DNA of 38,317 bases from the NCBI GenBank assembly GCA_005772825.1, contig SXIP01000047.1:1-38317 (forward strand), read 5' to 3'. Positions 22,552 to 29,346 of the stretch are shown here, in pieces. The first letter of the stretch is position 1. The number at the start of each line of letters is the position of its first letter. The notes under the pieces are model-generated. The model was not told the origin of the DNA. It saw only the letters and a program-made list of their open reading frames with translations, and did no database searches. Made by a program: the position numbers and the translations under genes. Origin of the DNA: Methylococcaceae bacterium. Its GTDB lineage: Bacteria > Pseudomonadota > Gammaproteobacteria > Methylococcales > Methylomonadaceae.

Positions 22552-23073
22552 ATGAAAAAAAATGTGATACAAAAAAAAGTTTTGTTTACCACTGCGGCTT
22601 TTCTGATGAGTGCTTTTTTTAGCATTGATGCGAAAGCGGTGGAAGAAGGTCAGCCCGCTCCACCTTTTACCCTGCCTTCATTATTACAAAACCGGGAAAC
22701 AAATTTACAACAATTCAAGGGCAAGGTTGTTTACCTTGATTTTTGGGCTTCATGGTGCGCTCCGTGCCGAATTTCTTTTCCTTTGTTAAATAAACTGCAT
22801 CAGAAACTTAAAAACCAGGATTTTGAAGTGGTGGCGATAAACCTTGATGAAGAAAAAGACAAGGCGGAAAAATTTCTAAAGGAAATCCCCGTGGATTTTA
22901 CCGTGTTGCGTGATGCCGACGGTAAATGGTCCGATCAATATGTTGTTGAATCAATGCCTACGTCCTTCATCATCGATAGAAACGGCGTTGTGCAGATGAT
23001 TCATCATGGCTTTACCAGTGACGATATAACCGGCATTGAAAACAAAATTACCGAATTGCTGGCAAGCAAATAG
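22552..23073 (+). CDS. TlpA/ResA-like periplasmic thiol-disulfide oxidoreductase
   Basis: 173 residues. A signal peptide (KKVLFTTAAFLMSAFFSIDAKA) is followed by an AhpC/TSA-Redoxin-type thioredoxin fold. The active site is WCAPC (C69, C72) after YLDFWAS, and the cis-proline segment is SMPTSFIIDRNG. Such proteins reduce specific envelope disulfides (cytochrome c apoproteins, Cu-site cysteines). It is the first of five tightly packed genes: the DUF4266 lipoprotein starts 9 bases after its stop. Its likely client is the double Cys at the tail of that lipoprotein, and its likely reductant is the DsbD encoded three genes on. Both are inferences from context. Confidence 0.92.
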   Translation: MKKNVIQKKVLFTTAAFLMSAFFSIDAKAVEEGQPAPPFTLPSLLQNRETNLQQFKGKVVYLDFWASWCAPCRISFPLLNKLHQKLKNQDFEVVAINLDEEKDKAEKFLKEIPVDFTVLRDADGKWSDQYVVESMPTSFIIDRNGVVQMIHHGFTSDDITGIENKITELLASK

Positions 23074-23082
23074 CCGCTCGTT

Positions 23083-23298
23083 ATGAAAGTTATTCGTATG
23101 TTATTGATGATTGGCGCCATTGTCGGCTGCGTAGCTTGTACGGAAGTTTTACCCAGGCAGCGAGGTAATTTGGCATTGCCGCAGATGGCGTTAACGCCTG
23201 ATGCCTTGGAATTTAGCCTGCGCCAACATACCGCGTTCAGTAAAGAAGCGGGCAGCGGCGGTTATGGCGGTGGCGGCGGCGGTTGCGGCTGCAACTAA
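23083..23298 (+). CDS. DUF4266 small lipoprotein with Gly-rich CGC tail
   Basis: 71 residues. The signal peptide ends in a lipobox; Cys19 in GCVAC is the probable lipidated residue, since the family pattern C-x-x-V-x-P-x-x-R-G-x-L starts there. The mature part has LALPQMALTPDALEFSLRQH and then HTAFSKEAGSGGYGGGGGG, and ends CGCN. The Cys-Gly-Cys end after a glycine run is as I remember the family; its function is unknown to me. A membrane-tethered flexible tail with a vicinal thiol pair suggests redox chemistry or metal binding. No canonical ApbE flavinylation motif (D-x-[ST]-[GS]-A-T) is present, so it is not an obvious FMN acceptor. It sits between tlpA and the DUF3570 gene. Confidence 0.88.
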   Translation: MKVIRMLLMIGAIVGCVACTEVLPRQRGNLALPQMALTPDALEFSLRQHTAFSKEAGSGGYGGGGGGCGCN

Positions 23299-23320
23299 AC
23301 ATCGCTCCCTGGTGAAAAAA

Positions 23321-24598
23321 ATGATGAGAATACCTGTGAAACGACATAAAAAAAACACCACCATTGCCCGCTTGGCCTGTGCGGCGCTAACCTTGCCGGG
23401 CATCATGCACACGGCAACGGCGGGACGGGTTGAAGAAACCTACAATGCCGATTTCCAATATGGTCATTATTCGGAAAGCGACAAGCGCATTGACGTCAAT
23501 ATTTTTGAAGGCGCGTTATCCGCGCCACTCGGCAAGGCCTTGACGGTCGATGTCAACTTAGTGCGCGATGTCATCTCGGGCGCTTCGCCGGTTTATAACC
23601 AAAATATCAAGGGGAAGATTAAACAAATTATCAGCGCGGCATCAGCCAAAAGTTCATGCGGGCAATCGATATGCGAGGAACGTAATGCGATAACATCCGG
23701 ATTGACTTATTTTTTTGATGCCGCTTCGATTAATCTAAACGGCGGTTATTCAAAGGAAAATGACTACCAATCAAGGTATGTCGGCAGTAATTTGAGTCTG
23801 GATTTGGGTAATAAAAAGCTGACCACGCTCAATTTCGGCGCTTCTGTGGCTTTTGATGAAATCGACCCGTCCGTTTCTCCCTGGGCGCATAGTACAGCGA
23901 AAAACGGGCGTATCCATGAAAGTAAAACCAGTCAAAGCTATTTGCTGGGCGTGACGCAAATTATCGACAAGGATTCTTTATTTCAAAGCAACCAGACGTT
24001 TAGTTATAGCAACGGCTATTTAACCGATCCTTATAAATGGGTTGAAGTGAAAGTCGCTAATCCGTGGTTCAGCTTCAGTTTGCCCATTGAGGAGGTCAGG
24101 CCGGGGGAAAAATTTCAATGGGCGTGGTTGAATCAATATGTCCGTCATTTCGGGCAATTGAACAATGCGGCCTTGCATTTGGATTATCGGTTTACCAAGG
24201 ATGACTGGGGCATCGATTCGCATACCTTTGAAGCAAGCTGGCATCAACCTATCGCCGATGGCTGGCAGTTGATTCCGCGATTTAGATATTATTCCCAAAC
24301 CAGCGCGGATTTTTATCAGCCGACCTTTAGCGGAAAGCTGTCGAATGACTTCAGGCGCTTGAAAAATCATTCCGCTTATTCGAGCGATTATCGGCTTGCA
24401 GGTTTTGGCGCGATTTCGGGAGGCATCAAATTGACTAAGGAAATTACCAATCTGAAATCAATCAACCAATTAAATTTTCAAACGGGCATTGAATATTACG
24501 ATCATCAAGCCGGTTATCGATTAGACGGTAATAGCTTGGGGCATTTTGCCGATTTTAGTTATTACCTGGTCACTGCGTCTTTTAATTTGAAGTTTTAA
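23321..24598 (+). CDS. DUF3570 outer-membrane beta-barrel protein
   Basis: 425 residues. A signal peptide follows the basic start (KRHKKNTTIARLACAALTLP, cleavage near TATA-GRVEE). The rest alternates hydrophobic and polar residues as in barrel strands, with aromatic girdles and a C-terminal Phe (SYYLVTASFNLKF), the usual outer-membrane assembly signal. Two Cys close together (SSCGQSICEE) may form a loop disulfide. The family has no established function. The ATG at 23321 is chosen; the same frame runs back to 23201 only by overlapping the DUF4266 gene in another frame. It starts 22 bases after the lipoprotein gene and ends 11 before apbE. Confidence 0.88.
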   Translation: MMRIPVKRHKKNTTIARLACAALTLPGIMHTATAGRVEETYNADFQYGHYSESDKRIDVNIFEGALSAPLGKALTVDVNLVRDVISGASPVYNQNIKGKIKQIISAASAKSSCGQSICEERNAITSGLTYFFDAASINLNGGYSKENDYQSRYVGSNLSLDLGNKKLTTLNFGASVAFDEIDPSVSPWAHSTAKNGRIHESKTSQSYLLGVTQIIDKDSLFQSNQTFSYSNGYLTDPYKWVEVKVANPWFSFSLPIEEVRPGEKFQWAWLNQYVRHFGQLNNAALHLDYRFTKDDWGIDSHTFEASWHQPIADGWQLIPRFRYYSQTSADFYQPTFSGKLSNDFRRLKNHSAYSSDYRLAGFGAISGGIKLTKEITNLKSINQLNFQTGIEYYDHQAGYRLDGNSLGHFADFSYYLVTASFNLKF

Positions 24599-24609
24599 TT
24601 CAGCAGGCC

Positions 24610-25518
24610 ATGCTGCAGGTATTTAATTTTGCATTCACAGCCATGGGTTCACCGTGCTGCGTGCAGTTCTGCACAGACTCGAAGGCTCAGGCGGAAGCGG
24701 TTTACCAGTTGGTTTTAAAGCGTATTGATCAGTTGGAGCAGCGCTATTCCCGTTATCGGGATGACAGTTTGATCGCCGAGATAAACCGGCGGGCGGGTTC
24801 GGGCGTTAGCACGCCGATAGATTCCGAAACAGTCGCCTTGCTGCACTATGCAGAGCAGTGTTATCGGGAAAGCAATCAATTGTTCGATGTGACGTCAGGC
24901 GTATTGCGGCGAGTATGGGATTTTAAAAATACCGGCTTGCCCGGCAAGACTGAAATAGACGCGGTTTTGCCGTTAATCGGCTGGAAAAAAGTGCAATGGA
25001 ACGCGCAAGGCATTTACCTGCCGCAAACCGGAATGCAGTTGGATTTTGGCGGCATCGTTAAAGAATATGCCGCCGATGCGGTGGCGGGTTTATTTCACCG
25101 GCAGGGCATATACAACGGAATTGTCGAGTTAGGAGGCGATATTAGAGTGATTGGCCCCATGCCCGATAACCAGGGCTGGCCCATTGCCATTCGCGATCCC
25201 AGGCAACCCGATAAAGTCATCGCGCAATTTAAACTGGCTTCCGGCGCTTTGGCCAGTAGCGGTGATTATGAACGCTTTCAGTTGATAGACGGGATTCGCT
25301 ACAGCCATTTGTTGCATCCCAAAACCGGCTGGCCGGTCACCGGCTTGCAGGCGGTCAGCGTTATTGCCGAACATTGCGTGGTCGCGGGCAGTGTCGCGAC
25401 TATTGCCATGCTCAAGGCTGACAAAGGATTGCCCTGGTTACGGAAATGCGGAGCGCCATTTTTATGCTGTCAAAGTAACGGACAGGTTTTTAACACTTTA
25501 GAGGTAGTAAAGACATGA
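24610..25518 (+). CDS. apbE: ApbE-family FAD:protein FMN transferase, variant active site
   Basis: 302 residues. ApbE enzymes split FAD and attach FMN to a Ser/Thr of exported proteins. Family segments: FDVTSGVLRRVWDF (92-105), LDFGGIVKEYAADA (144-157), VELGGDIRVIG (172-182), GALASSGDYER and YSHLLHPKTGWPV (231-243). The normally conserved Asp of the C-terminal ADALxT motif, a Mg ligand in characterised enzymes, is replaced: VVAGSVATIAML has Gly260 there while Thr264 is kept. HxxDP is HLLHP. No signal peptide or lipobox is visible, unusual for a periplasmic ApbE. Its stop overlaps the dsbD start (ATGA), so the two are translationally coupled. It could be a cytosolic or specialised flavin transferase of the DUF4266/DUF3570 system. 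Confidence 0.9.
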   Translation: MLQVFNFAFTAMGSPCCVQFCTDSKAQAEAVYQLVLKRIDQLEQRYSRYRDDSLIAEINRRAGSGVSTPIDSETVALLHYAEQCYRESNQLFDVTSGVLRRVWDFKNTGLPGKTEIDAVLPLIGWKKVQWNAQGIYLPQTGMQLDFGGIVKEYAADAVAGLFHRQGIYNGIVELGGDIRVIGPMPDNQGWPIAIRDPRQPDKVIAQFKLASGALASSGDYERFQLIDGIRYSHLLHPKTGWPVTGLQAVSVIAEHCVVAGSVATIAMLKADKGLPWLRKCGAPFLCCQSNGQVFNTLEVVKT

Positions 25519-27413
25519 AAAAAATTGCAATTATTACAATGTGTTGGTTATTTGCGATAGTTATGGCTCATGCCGAAATCCCAAAAGCAGGGCTAACAAT
25601 CGCTCCTTTAAATTCCGAGCAGTGGCCGGCAGAGTTTCGACTGACATTGACTGTGCCGAACGATCACCATGCCTATTTGGATGCCGGACAAGAAAATATT
25701 TACATTCCTATCGCCCTGGATTCCAAGGACGCGTTGACCGCCGCCCGGTTAAAGATCACCACGCTGCAAAAACCGGCAGGCGTGTTCGATGGCAAGGTTA
25801 AAGCCACCGTGTTGAGAGGTCAGGGCGATTTTACTTTTTCGCTTACCCCCATAGATCGGCAGCCGCCGGATCGCTTAGTAACGTTAGCGGTTAGCTATCA
25901 GCTATGCAATGACTTGACCCATGTGTGTTTTCGTCCGCAAACCGCGCCAATCAGTGTAACGCTGCCGGTCGCCACAGCCATGCAAAACGCTGTAAGCGCT
26001 GACGAAGCGATCAGCTTTACCGATCAACTGTTGTCATTATTTAAAAATAACCGGGACAACACTTTTGTCATGTTTTGGCTCATGTTTATGGCGGGAATGT
26101 TGTCGGTTGCAACGCCGTGTGTTTACCCGATGTTGCCGATCACTTCAATGTTCATTGTCAACCGCGCCAACGGCATTGCTGAAAAGGAAAAGCTGCATGC
26201 GCTCGTCTATGTCATCGGTATTATCGGCACCTACATGGTCTTAGGCCTAATGGCGGGAATGACCGGCGGGGCGTTTAATACCATTATGCAATCGGCTTGG
26301 GTCAATATTGGTTTTGCCCTGTTTTTTGCTTTTTTCGCCATCGCGTTGCTGGGCTTTTACGAATTGGCCTTTATGCAGAATGAAGTGCATTCCCTCGATC
26401 AACAATCCGCGCGTATTAAAGGTTTAGGCGGCACCTGGATGATGGGCGCTGTCGCGGGATTGGTCATTTCGCCTTGCGTAGGCCCGATTGTCTTCGCGCT
26501 GTTGCTGCAAGTTGCCGACAACATCGCCGACAAAGCCGATGAACTGGTGGCAATCGGCGAGACTTTAACTTTTTGGGACAAACTAGGCATTGCTTCGCAA
26601 GGCAGCATCATGATGGGCGGATTTGGGTTTGGCGTAGGCCTGCCTTTTTTCATCATCAGCGTGGTCAAATTCAAGAAGCTGCCCAAAGCCGGTTACTGGA
26701 TGAACAAAATCAAATATGCGTTCGGCTTGATGATTTTGTACTTCGCTTACCAGTATTTTGCCAAAGGCATGGGCGTGTTGGCAGTCGAGCCTGTTGTGAC
26801 GCGTTCATTGGCTTTTGGCGTAGCGGCCGTATGGATCGCCGTGGTGCATTGCAATGTATTATCGCTGTTACCCCCCGATGCCCAACCCAACCAGAAAATG
26901 CATCATTTTGTCGGAGTGATGTCGTTGATCATCGGTGCTTGCTTAATTGTGGTCGGTCTTGGCAAAACGCCGATTATCGCGGTTGCTCATGCAGAGACGC
27001 CGGCAGTTGCAAGCAGTGAATCGGGCATAACCGCCACCGTGCAAGAGGAGGCGGGAATTTCATGGTATAGAAATTTTGAGTCCGCGCAAAAAGCCGCCCG
27101 GCAATCAGGAAAACCGATATTTATAGATTTTTATGCGAGCTGGTGCGCTAACTGCGTGGCCTTCAAGGAAGAAGTCGCCCATAACCTGAAATTGAATCAG
27201 GCCTTAAGAGAAAAAGCGGTTGCCGTGAAGCTGGTGGACAAAGAGCCGGAATTTGAAAAATTTCGCGCGCAATCGGAGCATCGCCAATTGAAGATCGGCT
27301 TACCCTATTTCGCCATTATTGCGCCGAGTGGAGAATTGATTTGGTCAAGCACTGATTACAAAGCCACGGAAAAAATGATGTCCATCCTCCTTGAACATCA
27401 AGGCGTGGTGTAG
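25515..27413 (+). CDS. dsbD: Thiol:disulfide interchange protein DsbD
   Basis: 632 residues with the full three-domain plan. A signal peptide (to about 20) precedes the periplasmic alpha domain with C131 and C138 (LCNDLTHVCFRP). Eight membrane helices follow, with the cysteines of TPCVYPMLP (C202) and SPCVGPIVF (C321). The C-terminal thioredoxin-like gamma domain has WCANC (543-547). It carries electrons from cytosolic thioredoxin through the membrane to periplasmic thiol proteins. The ATGA overlap with apbE and the tlpA gene upstream suggest that this copy serves the cluster. The short unstructured linker (about 490-515) is Ala/Glu rich. Nothing essential is missing. Confidence 0.96.
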   Translation: MKKIAIITMCWLFAIVMAHAEIPKAGLTIAPLNSEQWPAEFRLTLTVPNDHHAYLDAGQENIYIPIALDSKDALTAARLKITTLQKPAGVFDGKVKATVLRGQGDFTFSLTPIDRQPPDRLVTLAVSYQLCNDLTHVCFRPQTAPISVTLPVATAMQNAVSADEAISFTDQLLSLFKNNRDNTFVMFWLMFMAGMLSVATPCVYPMLPITSMFIVNRANGIAEKEKLHALVYVIGIIGTYMVLGLMAGMTGGAFNTIMQSAWVNIGFALFFAFFAIALLGFYELAFMQNEVHSLDQQSARIKGLGGTWMMGAVAGLVISPCVGPIVFALLLQVADNIADKADELVAIGETLTFWDKLGIASQGSIMMGGFGFGVGLPFFIISVVKFKKLPKAGYWMNKIKYAFGLMILYFAYQYFAKGMGVLAVEPVVTRSLAFGVAAVWIAVVHCNVLSLLPPDAQPNQKMHHFVGVMSLIIGACLIVVGLGKTPIIAVAHAETPAVASSESGITATVQEEAGISWYRNFESAQKAARQSGKPIFIDFYASWCANCVAFKEEVAHNLKLNQALREKAVAVKLVDKEPEFEKFRAQSEHRQLKIGLPYFAIIAPSGELIWSSTDYKATEKMMSILLEHQGVV

Positions 27414-27672: not shown

Positions 27673-28374
27673 ATGAATAAAACAACTTATTTTTATAAAA
27701 CCTTGACTGCCTTATGCCTAGTGGCGGCATCACAGTTCATCACAAGCAATGCTTCGGCAACCGCGCAAATTTTCTCAAGTGCGATTTCCAAAGGCATTAA
27801 GGTGACAAGTTGCCAATCCTGCCATTCGGGTTCGCCGGGTCAAGAGGACAAGGGGAATTTAAAGACCAACTATCTGAATGCGTACAAACTGGACCAGTCG
27901 GGTTTGTCCCGTCTTAAGAATTTAATCAACGGCTGCCCTACCGGACAGGTGCTGAATCAAACCACCTTTCTTTGTACAGCGTCTGTTCCGGCTAAACCAA
28001 AAACGGTTTCAGGAGCCGTCGGCTCAAGTACGTCCGGTGCGGCGAAAACCGATGTATACGCGGTTAGCTGCGCCGCCGGTTCGTCTTCTCTTGCTGTGTC
28101 GGTTAGTGATATGCCGCCTGTTAAAGCCCCTATCGTCAGCATTCAAGCGACGAAGGGTTTTTCCACCTCAGCGTTAAGCCAGGATAACAAAGACGGCGAC
28201 GGCAAATTTAGCCCGGAAGTAAAGCTGGCCGGTGGATCAGGCGTATACAATATGCGCGTCAATAAAGGCGCGTCAACCGTAACAGGCGCGGAAACTTACA
28301 CGGCTAAATTCGCGTGCCGGAATGCGGCGGGCGTACAAACCGGTACCACATGGACCATCAAGCAAAATCAATAA
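27673..28374 (+). CDS. Periplasmic monohaem cytochrome c-like protein
   Basis: 233 residues. The signal peptide ends at ...TSNASA. A single c-type haem motif C47-x-x-C50-H51 (SCQSCHSG) is near the N-terminus, followed by helices too few for a standard cytochrome c domain. A second Cys pair lies in GCPTGQVLNQTTFLC. After a Ser/Ala linker (about 105-130) comes a beta-sandwich-like domain with two more Cys and an Asp-rich DNKDGDGKFSPE that resembles a calcium loop. The family is not recognised. It may be a small electron carrier; haem attachment rests only on the motif. The start at 27673 has AAGGA upstream and yields the signal peptide, whereas the longer frame runs through the palindromic repeats. 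Confidence 0.75.
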   Translation: MNKTTYFYKTLTALCLVAASQFITSNASATAQIFSSAISKGIKVTSCQSCHSGSPGQEDKGNLKTNYLNAYKLDQSGLSRLKNLINGCPTGQVLNQTTFLCTASVPAKPKTVSGAVGSSTSGAAKTDVYAVSCAAGSSSLAVSVSDMPPVKAPIVSIQATKGFSTSALSQDNKDGDGKFSPEVKLAGGSGVYNMRVNKGASTVTGAETYTAKFACRNAAGVQTGTTWTIKQNQ

Positions 28375-28470: not shown

Positions 28471-29346
28471 ATGTCTTTCACTATGCAGCGACGAGTTTGT
28501 TACACGGTAATGACTGCTATCGTCGCGTTTCCGTTACAAGTGATGGCGGCAACAACCAAAATGCCTGACAAGGTTTCAGACAGCACGGATGTTCGTTTGA
28601 TAGTAAGCGCAAATAAGGGCAGCGAACTGCAACTGGAAGTTAGACACACCCCTTTAGCGCAGGTGCTTGACAGCCTCGCCCGGCAAATCAATATTCCAAT
28701 CCATTATTCGGTTCTTCCCAAAAACGTAGTGACCGCTACCTGTGTCGGGGCAACTTTAAAAGAAATATTGGCGTGCCTGATAGCCGAAAAAGCCGGTTTA
28801 GTCTTTCGCTACTCAAAAACAGCCGTCAATAGCCAGGACATTGCAGAAGCCTGGATAATGGGTTCGACCTTAGCCGAACTACCCGCTCAAAATGGGAATT
28901 GCGCCGCAATGACGACGGTGAAATCAAGCAGTAAACCGACAGCCAAGCAGGCCGGGAAAAAGCACGATTCAGAGCCGGATAGGGTCGGCGAACTGTTGGC
29001 GATGGCTAAATCCAAAAATCCTGAAGACCGCGCAAGCGCTATGGGCGCCATATTAAGTGATGAAATAAAAAGCGCCCCTGCAATAAAAGCCGCATTAGAG
29101 GACGCGTTGACGGATCAGGACGCCGCTGTCAGGGCGCAAGCGGTTTCAACCTTAGCCCGCCTTGAAGGTAATGATGCTGGCGCCGTGTTACAAGATGCGC
29201 TGCACGATAGAGATGTCGATGTCAGGCTAATGGCGGTTGACGGTATTACTGATGATGTTACGCTACTCAGTCAGGCCCTTAACGACAGTGATGAAACCGT
29301 GCGCGGTTTGGCTGCGATAAAACTCGAAGCGTTAAGCCAACAATAA
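28471..29346 (+). CDS. Exported protein with STN-like domain and HEAT repeats
   Basis: 291 residues. A signal peptide (YTVMTAIVAFPLQVMAA) precedes an STN-like module at about 52-118 (LQLEVRHTPLAQVLDSLARQ ... ILACLIAEKAGLVFRYS), the short domain found at the N-terminus of secretins and TonB-dependent receptors. A basic linker (about 145-165) leads to HEAT repeats at 170-291 with acidic helix turns (ALEDALTDQDAAVRAQAV, ALHDRDVDVRLMAV, ALNDSDETVRGLAA). No catalytic motif is seen. It is probably a periplasmic scaffold; its partner may be an outer-membrane channel, perhaps the DUF3570 protein, but that is a guess from proximity. Confidence 0.8.
   Translation: MSFTMQRRVCYTVMTAIVAFPLQVMAATTKMPDKVSDSTDVRLIVSANKGSELQLEVRHTPLAQVLDSLARQINIPIHYSVLPKNVVTATCVGATLKEILACLIAEKAGLVFRYSKTAVNSQDIAEAWIMGSTLAELPAQNGNCAAMTTVKSSSKPTAKQAGKKHDSEPDRVGELLAMAKSKNPEDRASAMGAILSDEIKSAPAIKAALEDALTDQDAAVRAQAVSTLARLEGNDAGAVLQDALHDRDVDVRLMAVDGITDDVTLLSQALNDSDETVRGLAAIKLEALSQQ

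Follow-up and report, generated by a model that had tools for sequence, protein, structure and literature searches.

The locus described here raises the question of which protein in a compact envelope redox operon carries flavin, in which compartment that flavin is attached, and what the assembled system does. The operon lies on contig SXIP01000047.1 (assembly GCA_005772825.1), a stretch of 38,317 nucleotides that is referred to as the window. It comes from a Methylococcales genome of 3.7 Mb and 77% completeness, whose nearest relatives are Methylovulum, Methylobacter, and other Methylococcaceae metagenome-assembled genomes. Open reading frame (ORF) calling and family profiles placed five genes on one strand, encoding TlpA, a DUF4266 lipoprotein, DUF3570, ApbE, and DsbD. 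The initial annotation had reported intergenic gaps of 9, 22, and 11 bases, a 4-base ATGA overlap between ApbE and DsbD, and a lipoprotein ending in CGCN; all of these were exact on re-check. The set is a member of a published but little-studied flavinylation system, and it probably serves to carry electrons from thiols to flavin across the outer membrane.

22552-23073, plus strand: TlpA/ResA-like periplasmic thioredoxin with a signal peptide and a WCAPC motif (ORF; PF08534, Redoxin, 1e-25; PF00578)
23083-23298, plus strand: DUF4266 lipoprotein of 71 amino acids, with a Gly-rich tail and a CGCN end (PF14086, 3e-19)
23284-23295, plus strand: codons for the terminal C-G-C-N, a CxC redox or metal motif (direct reading)
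23321-24598, plus strand: DUF3570 outer-membrane beta-barrel, predicted ApbE substrate (PF12094, 4e-102)
23576-23587, plus strand: flavinylation site 1, S-G-A-S in DVISGASP, mature residues 52-55 (motif match)
23633-23644, plus strand: degraded flavinylation site 2, S-A-A-S, mature residues 71-74 (motif reading)
24610-25518, plus strand: ApbE flavin transferase of a leaderless Gly/Glu type, with Gly260, Glu152, Cys16, and Cys256 (PF02424, 9e-71)
25515-27413, plus strand: DsbD, with cysteine pairs in the alpha (C..C), transmembrane (TPC/SPC), and gamma (WCANC) parts (PF02683, 6e-36; PF13899)

Clusters in which DsbD is encoded with ApbE, DUF3570, a thioredoxin-like protein, and DUF4266 were described by Meheust et al. 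(2021; eLife, PMC8238504). That study remarked on the CxC end of DUF4266 and demonstrated by coexpression that the DUF3570 protein of Chlorobium luteolum is flavinylated by its own ApbE at two [ST]GA[ST] sites. The window carries the same gene set in one cluster, with the substrate motif on DUF3570 and the C-terminal CxC on the lipoprotein; it is a member of the DsbD-type system and hence already known, and it is DUF3570 that carries the flavin, rather than the DUF4266 lipoprotein (PMC8238504). The statement in the initial annotation that it knew of no function for either family is therefore outdated. Within the literature searched, DUF3570 or DUF4266 was named only in PMC8238504; a later paper from the same group modeled other substrates and does not treat DUF3570 in its text. 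The window differs from the published clusters in that its ApbE has no signal peptide and a swapped metal-site acid, and in that its DUF3570 has one intact motif (SGAS) and a degraded second (SAAS), compared with two in the Chlorobium protein. The outer-membrane topology and the fusion of DUF3570 to a second barrel, both presented below, are not described in PMC8238504.

The five-gene block is kept in relatives at 55-81% DUF3570 identity, and TlpA and DUF3570 accompanied DUF4266 in 19/19 usable loci of a set with less bias, which was taken from the phylum with DUF4266 as the only criterion; the block is therefore more than a chance arrangement. ApbE lay within 4.5 kb in 13 of these 19 loci, and DsbD was present in four. 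A larger survey covered 94 distinct loci with enough flank, which were partly chosen and are not independent; the partners found in cis were TlpA (78 loci), DUF4266 (89), ApbE (60), and DsbD (26). The pattern that the initial annotation had named as refuting it, DUF4266 and DUF3570 usually without ApbE and TlpA, was not the one observed. Because DsbD occurred in only 26/94 and 4/19 loci, it is an optional donor and a dispensable member, in agreement with the 316 DsbD-free clusters in PMC8238504. A scan for promoters and terminators gave matches no more frequent than in shuffled sequence.

Site 1 of the window DUF3570 (DVISGASP) is a perfect match to the flavinylation consensus D-x-x-[ST]-G-A-[ST] (PMC12052999). 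Site 2 reads QIISAASA, a degraded form in common with the nearest relative (L035), and is SGAS in most relatives. Since a Gly-to-Ala change in another flavinylated substrate left approximately 50% flavinylation (PMC12052999), site 2 may be weak or lost. An intact motif was present in 51/60 loci with a cluster ApbE and in 20/34 loci without one. A strict link between the two was rejected; the association is weak, which may reflect a supply of ApbE in trans.

The DUF3570 sequence had no meaningful match among solved proteins. An AlphaFold2 model built from 17 homologues gave a 16-strand barrel (predicted local distance difference test [pLDDT], 71.6; predicted template modeling score, 0.68), which VIA-align matched to the PelB, CdiB, and BcsC barrels at Z of about 20 and to OmpF-like porins at Z of 16-17. 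The predicted even strand number and the C-terminal aromatic residue (NLKF end) are those of an outer-membrane barrel. In the model, odd loops averaged 15.9 residues compared with 4.1 for even turns, and the barrel topology is therefore clear. Both flavinylation sites were modeled in or bordering loop 54-82, opposite the termini, with site 1 at the loop edge. Given the termini on the short-turn side, standard topology would place both sites in one long loop that is presumably exposed at the cell surface.

Further features of the DUF3570 proteins were also observed. A CG..IC cysteine pair occurs in the flavin loop of the window protein and of L035-L049, is kept in most short-form relatives, and is missing from L045 and L050. 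L059 (6456-10802) and L060 (6863-10153) carry insertions of approximately 300-570 residues after the motifs of this loop. The signal peptide is unusually conserved (AAL.LPG) in 75/144 sequences, mostly from Methylococcales (L002-L061). Two genomes, G096 and G102 (L052 and L053), encode 9 or 10 DUF3570 copies each, several of them in tandem, and site 1 is altered to GGAT in several copies.

The window ApbE belongs to its superfamily by profile and by its active-site Ser and His (SGDYER, YSHLLHPKTG). Its type shares the family profile and the active-site Ser, His, Thr, and Tyr with the canonical exported ApbE/Ftp of E. coli, Vibrio, and Treponema, but differs from them in lacking a signal peptide, in Asp-to-Gly and Gly-to-Glu changes, and in two conserved Cys (MxxPC and CxxAG). 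The window ORF starts 11 residues before the MGSPC motif and the conserved core, leaving no room for a signal peptide or lipobox. A mis-called start was rejected, as only eight open codons lie upstream and the same short frame is seen in nearly all relatives. Where the canonical ADA motif has the metal-site Asp, the window protein has AGS (Gly260). This position was Gly in 66 and Asp in four DUF3570-linked ApbEs, and Asp in 29 and Gly in two unlinked ones. By a simple 12-residue hydrophobicity window, which is not SignalP, a signal was absent in 66/73 linked ApbEs and present in 29/33 unlinked ApbEs.

Of 130 ApbE sequences, 84 were of the Gly/Glu type and 41 of the Asp/Gly type. The FastTree tree united the DUF3570-linked ApbEs of Pseudomonadota in one clade (85/130 sequences; support, 0.99), and the 85 Gly sequences were split from the rest without error. 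Within the clade, Gly replaced the metal-binding Asp in 85/85, a Glu was gained in the other metal-site loop in 84/85, and a signal peptide was missing from nearly every member. This leaderless Gly/Glu clade is new here. A slip of the alignment was rejected, because the adjacent A-x-x-x-T aligns cleanly and the two exchanges are linked in 84/85. In E. coli ApbE, D280 binds metal 1 through its side chain and backbone, T166 is a further metal-1 ligand, and metal 2 is held by E169 together with the substrate phosphates (PMC4767422); the new Glu of the clade adjoins the E169-equivalent position (KG to KE). Both typical Cys were found in 70/84. The alignment shows that Ser, His, and Thr of the active site are for the most part kept, as is the Tyr by which transferases are distinguished from pyrophosphatases; residue roles follow PMC4767422 and PMC12052999, and the Tyr equivalence is our own alignment reading. 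Two Bacteroidota loci (L051 and L193) and a gammaproteobacterium (L139) have an exported ApbE with the Asp retained.

The presence of this type followed that of the cluster across genomes, which share ancestry, so that the counts are not independent events. Among 31 Methylococcales genomes, all 18 with DUF4266 carried an additional short ApbE, confirmed by residue in 17 of them, whereas none of the 13 without DUF4266 did, having the canonical enzyme only or, once, a fragment. A strong DUF3570 match was obtained in 22 genomes of a gammaproteobacterial sample, and at least 20 of these had a Gly/Glu ApbE; of the two exceptions, one had a frame-broken copy in the cluster and the other was cut at a contig end. 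Only two genomes of this sample had the type without a strong DUF3570 match. Genomes G163, G166, and G296 have a cluster without ApbE and a Gly/Glu ApbE elsewhere. The source genome holds a second leaderless Gly/Glu ApbE at a contig edge (L220, 210-1133; G000:C180), and the assembly may lack a further DUF3570 cluster, perhaps one of the fused form.

All cysteine pairs of DsbD and the CXXC of TlpA are present in the translations, and DsbD has been proposed by others to feed such flavinylation systems. In the electron route that we favor, cytoplasmic thioredoxin would reduce DsbD in the inner membrane, and DsbD would reduce TlpA in the periplasm. It is plausible that TlpA then reduces the CxC tail of DUF4266, a lipoprotein that would sit at the periplasmic face of the outer membrane. 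From this CxC, electrons would pass to covalent flavin mononucleotide (FMN) on the DUF3570 barrel, and from there to a surface acceptor, which may be an oxidized metal. The leaderless linked ApbE probably puts FMN on DUF3570 in the cytoplasm before barrel export, as the features of its clade suggest. It is possible, though a little short of probable, that a cytoplasmic ApbE clade with a relocated metal-site carboxylate flavinylates the barrel precursor, which then crosses Sec and folds into a flavin-loaded conduit.

Several points weigh against this route. No member from Pseudomonadota or from a methanotroph is known to us to have been studied by experiment. Most clusters lack DsbD. Several relatives (L040-L049) lack a cluster ApbE, and three of them (L042, L043, and L049) have lost the first Ser/Thr of site 1, with the acceptor serine kept; site 2 of the window protein is degraded. 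The barrel model is of middling confidence, with loops often below 60 pLDDT, and cannot tell whether the lipoprotein tail enters the barrel pore. Without the metal-1 Asp, the linked ApbE could be inactive. The source genome also has an exported canonical ApbE with a lipobox and an ADA motif (G000:C280; L032), which could flavinylate DUF3570 in the periplasm; the periplasm therefore stays a possible place of flavinylation.

The barrels of relatives bear on a first alternative. The DUF3570 proteins of Methylococcales often carry, fused at the C-terminal end, a second barrel-like region rich in Met and His; CGCY-ending DUF4266 is mainly found beside such fusions, which have 850-1050 residues. Examples with a His-rich linker and many Met are L002 (1375-4125), L060 (6863-10153), and L061 (5595-8264), and the motifs include HHDHGSHHH, MHMHMLD, and MVMPQ. 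Such a composition is only suggestive of metal as the partner. It would fit a role in metal handling, in which TlpA and DsbD keep the DUF4266 CxC reduced and able to bind copper or iron, and metal at the surface is reduced by the flavin barrel for uptake or detoxification. A CxC is able to bind metal as well as to cycle, and some published clusters contain the VIT1 iron transporter (PMC8238504). However, the window form has neither the second barrel nor an adjacent metal gene, and the second barrel had no match in Pfam, NCBIfam, or the PDB. We regard metal handling as rather unlikely, and as compatible with the electron route and not exclusive of it.

A second alternative, that the exported canonical ApbE modifies DUF3570 in the periplasm and the linked enzyme is inactive or has another role, we consider unlikely. 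The exchange at the ligand corresponding to D280 (PMC4767422), the lipobox ApbE of the source genome, and the periplasmic location needed by classical ApbE (PMC12052999) all speak for it. On the other side, the leaderless enzyme keeps its active-site Ser, His, Thr, and Tyr and has Glu beside the metal-2 ligand in 84/85; moreover, DUF3570 genomes without a cluster ApbE carry the Gly/Glu type elsewhere, and DUF3570-free genomes almost never do.

The C-terminal CGC[NY] of DUF4266 was found in 127/132 distinct relatives (CGCN, 94; CGCY, 33), the remainder being mostly cut or frame-shifted reads. The initial annotation proposed that FMN or metal is possibly added to this tail, for transfer of electrons or metal. 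This is highly improbable, and a modified tail is not supported: the tail is nearly invariant and Gly-rich, but D..[ST]GA[ST] is absent from every DUF4266 protein examined and present in the window DUF3570, the family of the proven substrate (PMC8238504). Flavinylation of DUF4266 was rejected for lack of this motif. The envelope thiol/flavin redox system of that interpretation is right, and is already in PMC8238504.

Two downstream genes, both missed by the initial annotation, recur with the system in relatives.

27673-28374, plus strand: secreted protein with one CQSCH, a possible c-heme site, and a C-terminal beta domain (recurrent neighbor, 26/94 loci)
28471-29346, plus strand: STN-like and HEAT-repeat secreted protein (PF13646; recurrent neighbor, 17/94 loci)

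The CQSCH protein had no Pfam match, and its structure model was too poor for a fold reading. In many clusters of the fused type, its C-terminal domain recurs as a protein of 155-180 residues encoded immediately upstream of TlpA. No multiheme cytochrome gene lies beside the operon, the neighbor having a single CQSCH. A plasmid search gave two weak matches only, both Hymenobacter (L192 and L193); both are plasmid-borne and carry ApbE, DUF4266, and DUF3570, with one of the genes apparently split in either case.

On the current view, extracytoplasmic proteins receive covalent flavin from ApbE that is itself exported, with exported flavin adenine dinucleotide (FAD) as the source. If the leaderless clade, described here as widespread, acts on DUF3570, flavin could be attached before export; FAD export would therefore not be needed, and the question of what the Sec pore can pass would be raised directly. 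The cytosolic ApbE of Klebsiella pneumoniae, which flavinylates fumarate reductase (PMC12052999), is likewise leaderless and acts in the cytoplasm, as is presumed here; its substrate is a soluble cytoplasmic enzyme, whereas the presumed substrate here is exported. In its working, the predicted system resembles the MtrAB(C) porin-cytochrome conduits, in which a barrel and a redox cofactor span the outer membrane, but it would use flavin and thiols instead of multiheme cytochromes, and its barrel gave no sequence match to solved barrels. A thiol-fed barrel with a surface-loop flavin would be a heme-free electron conduit across the outer membrane, relevant to methane oxidizers reaching external electron acceptors or metals.

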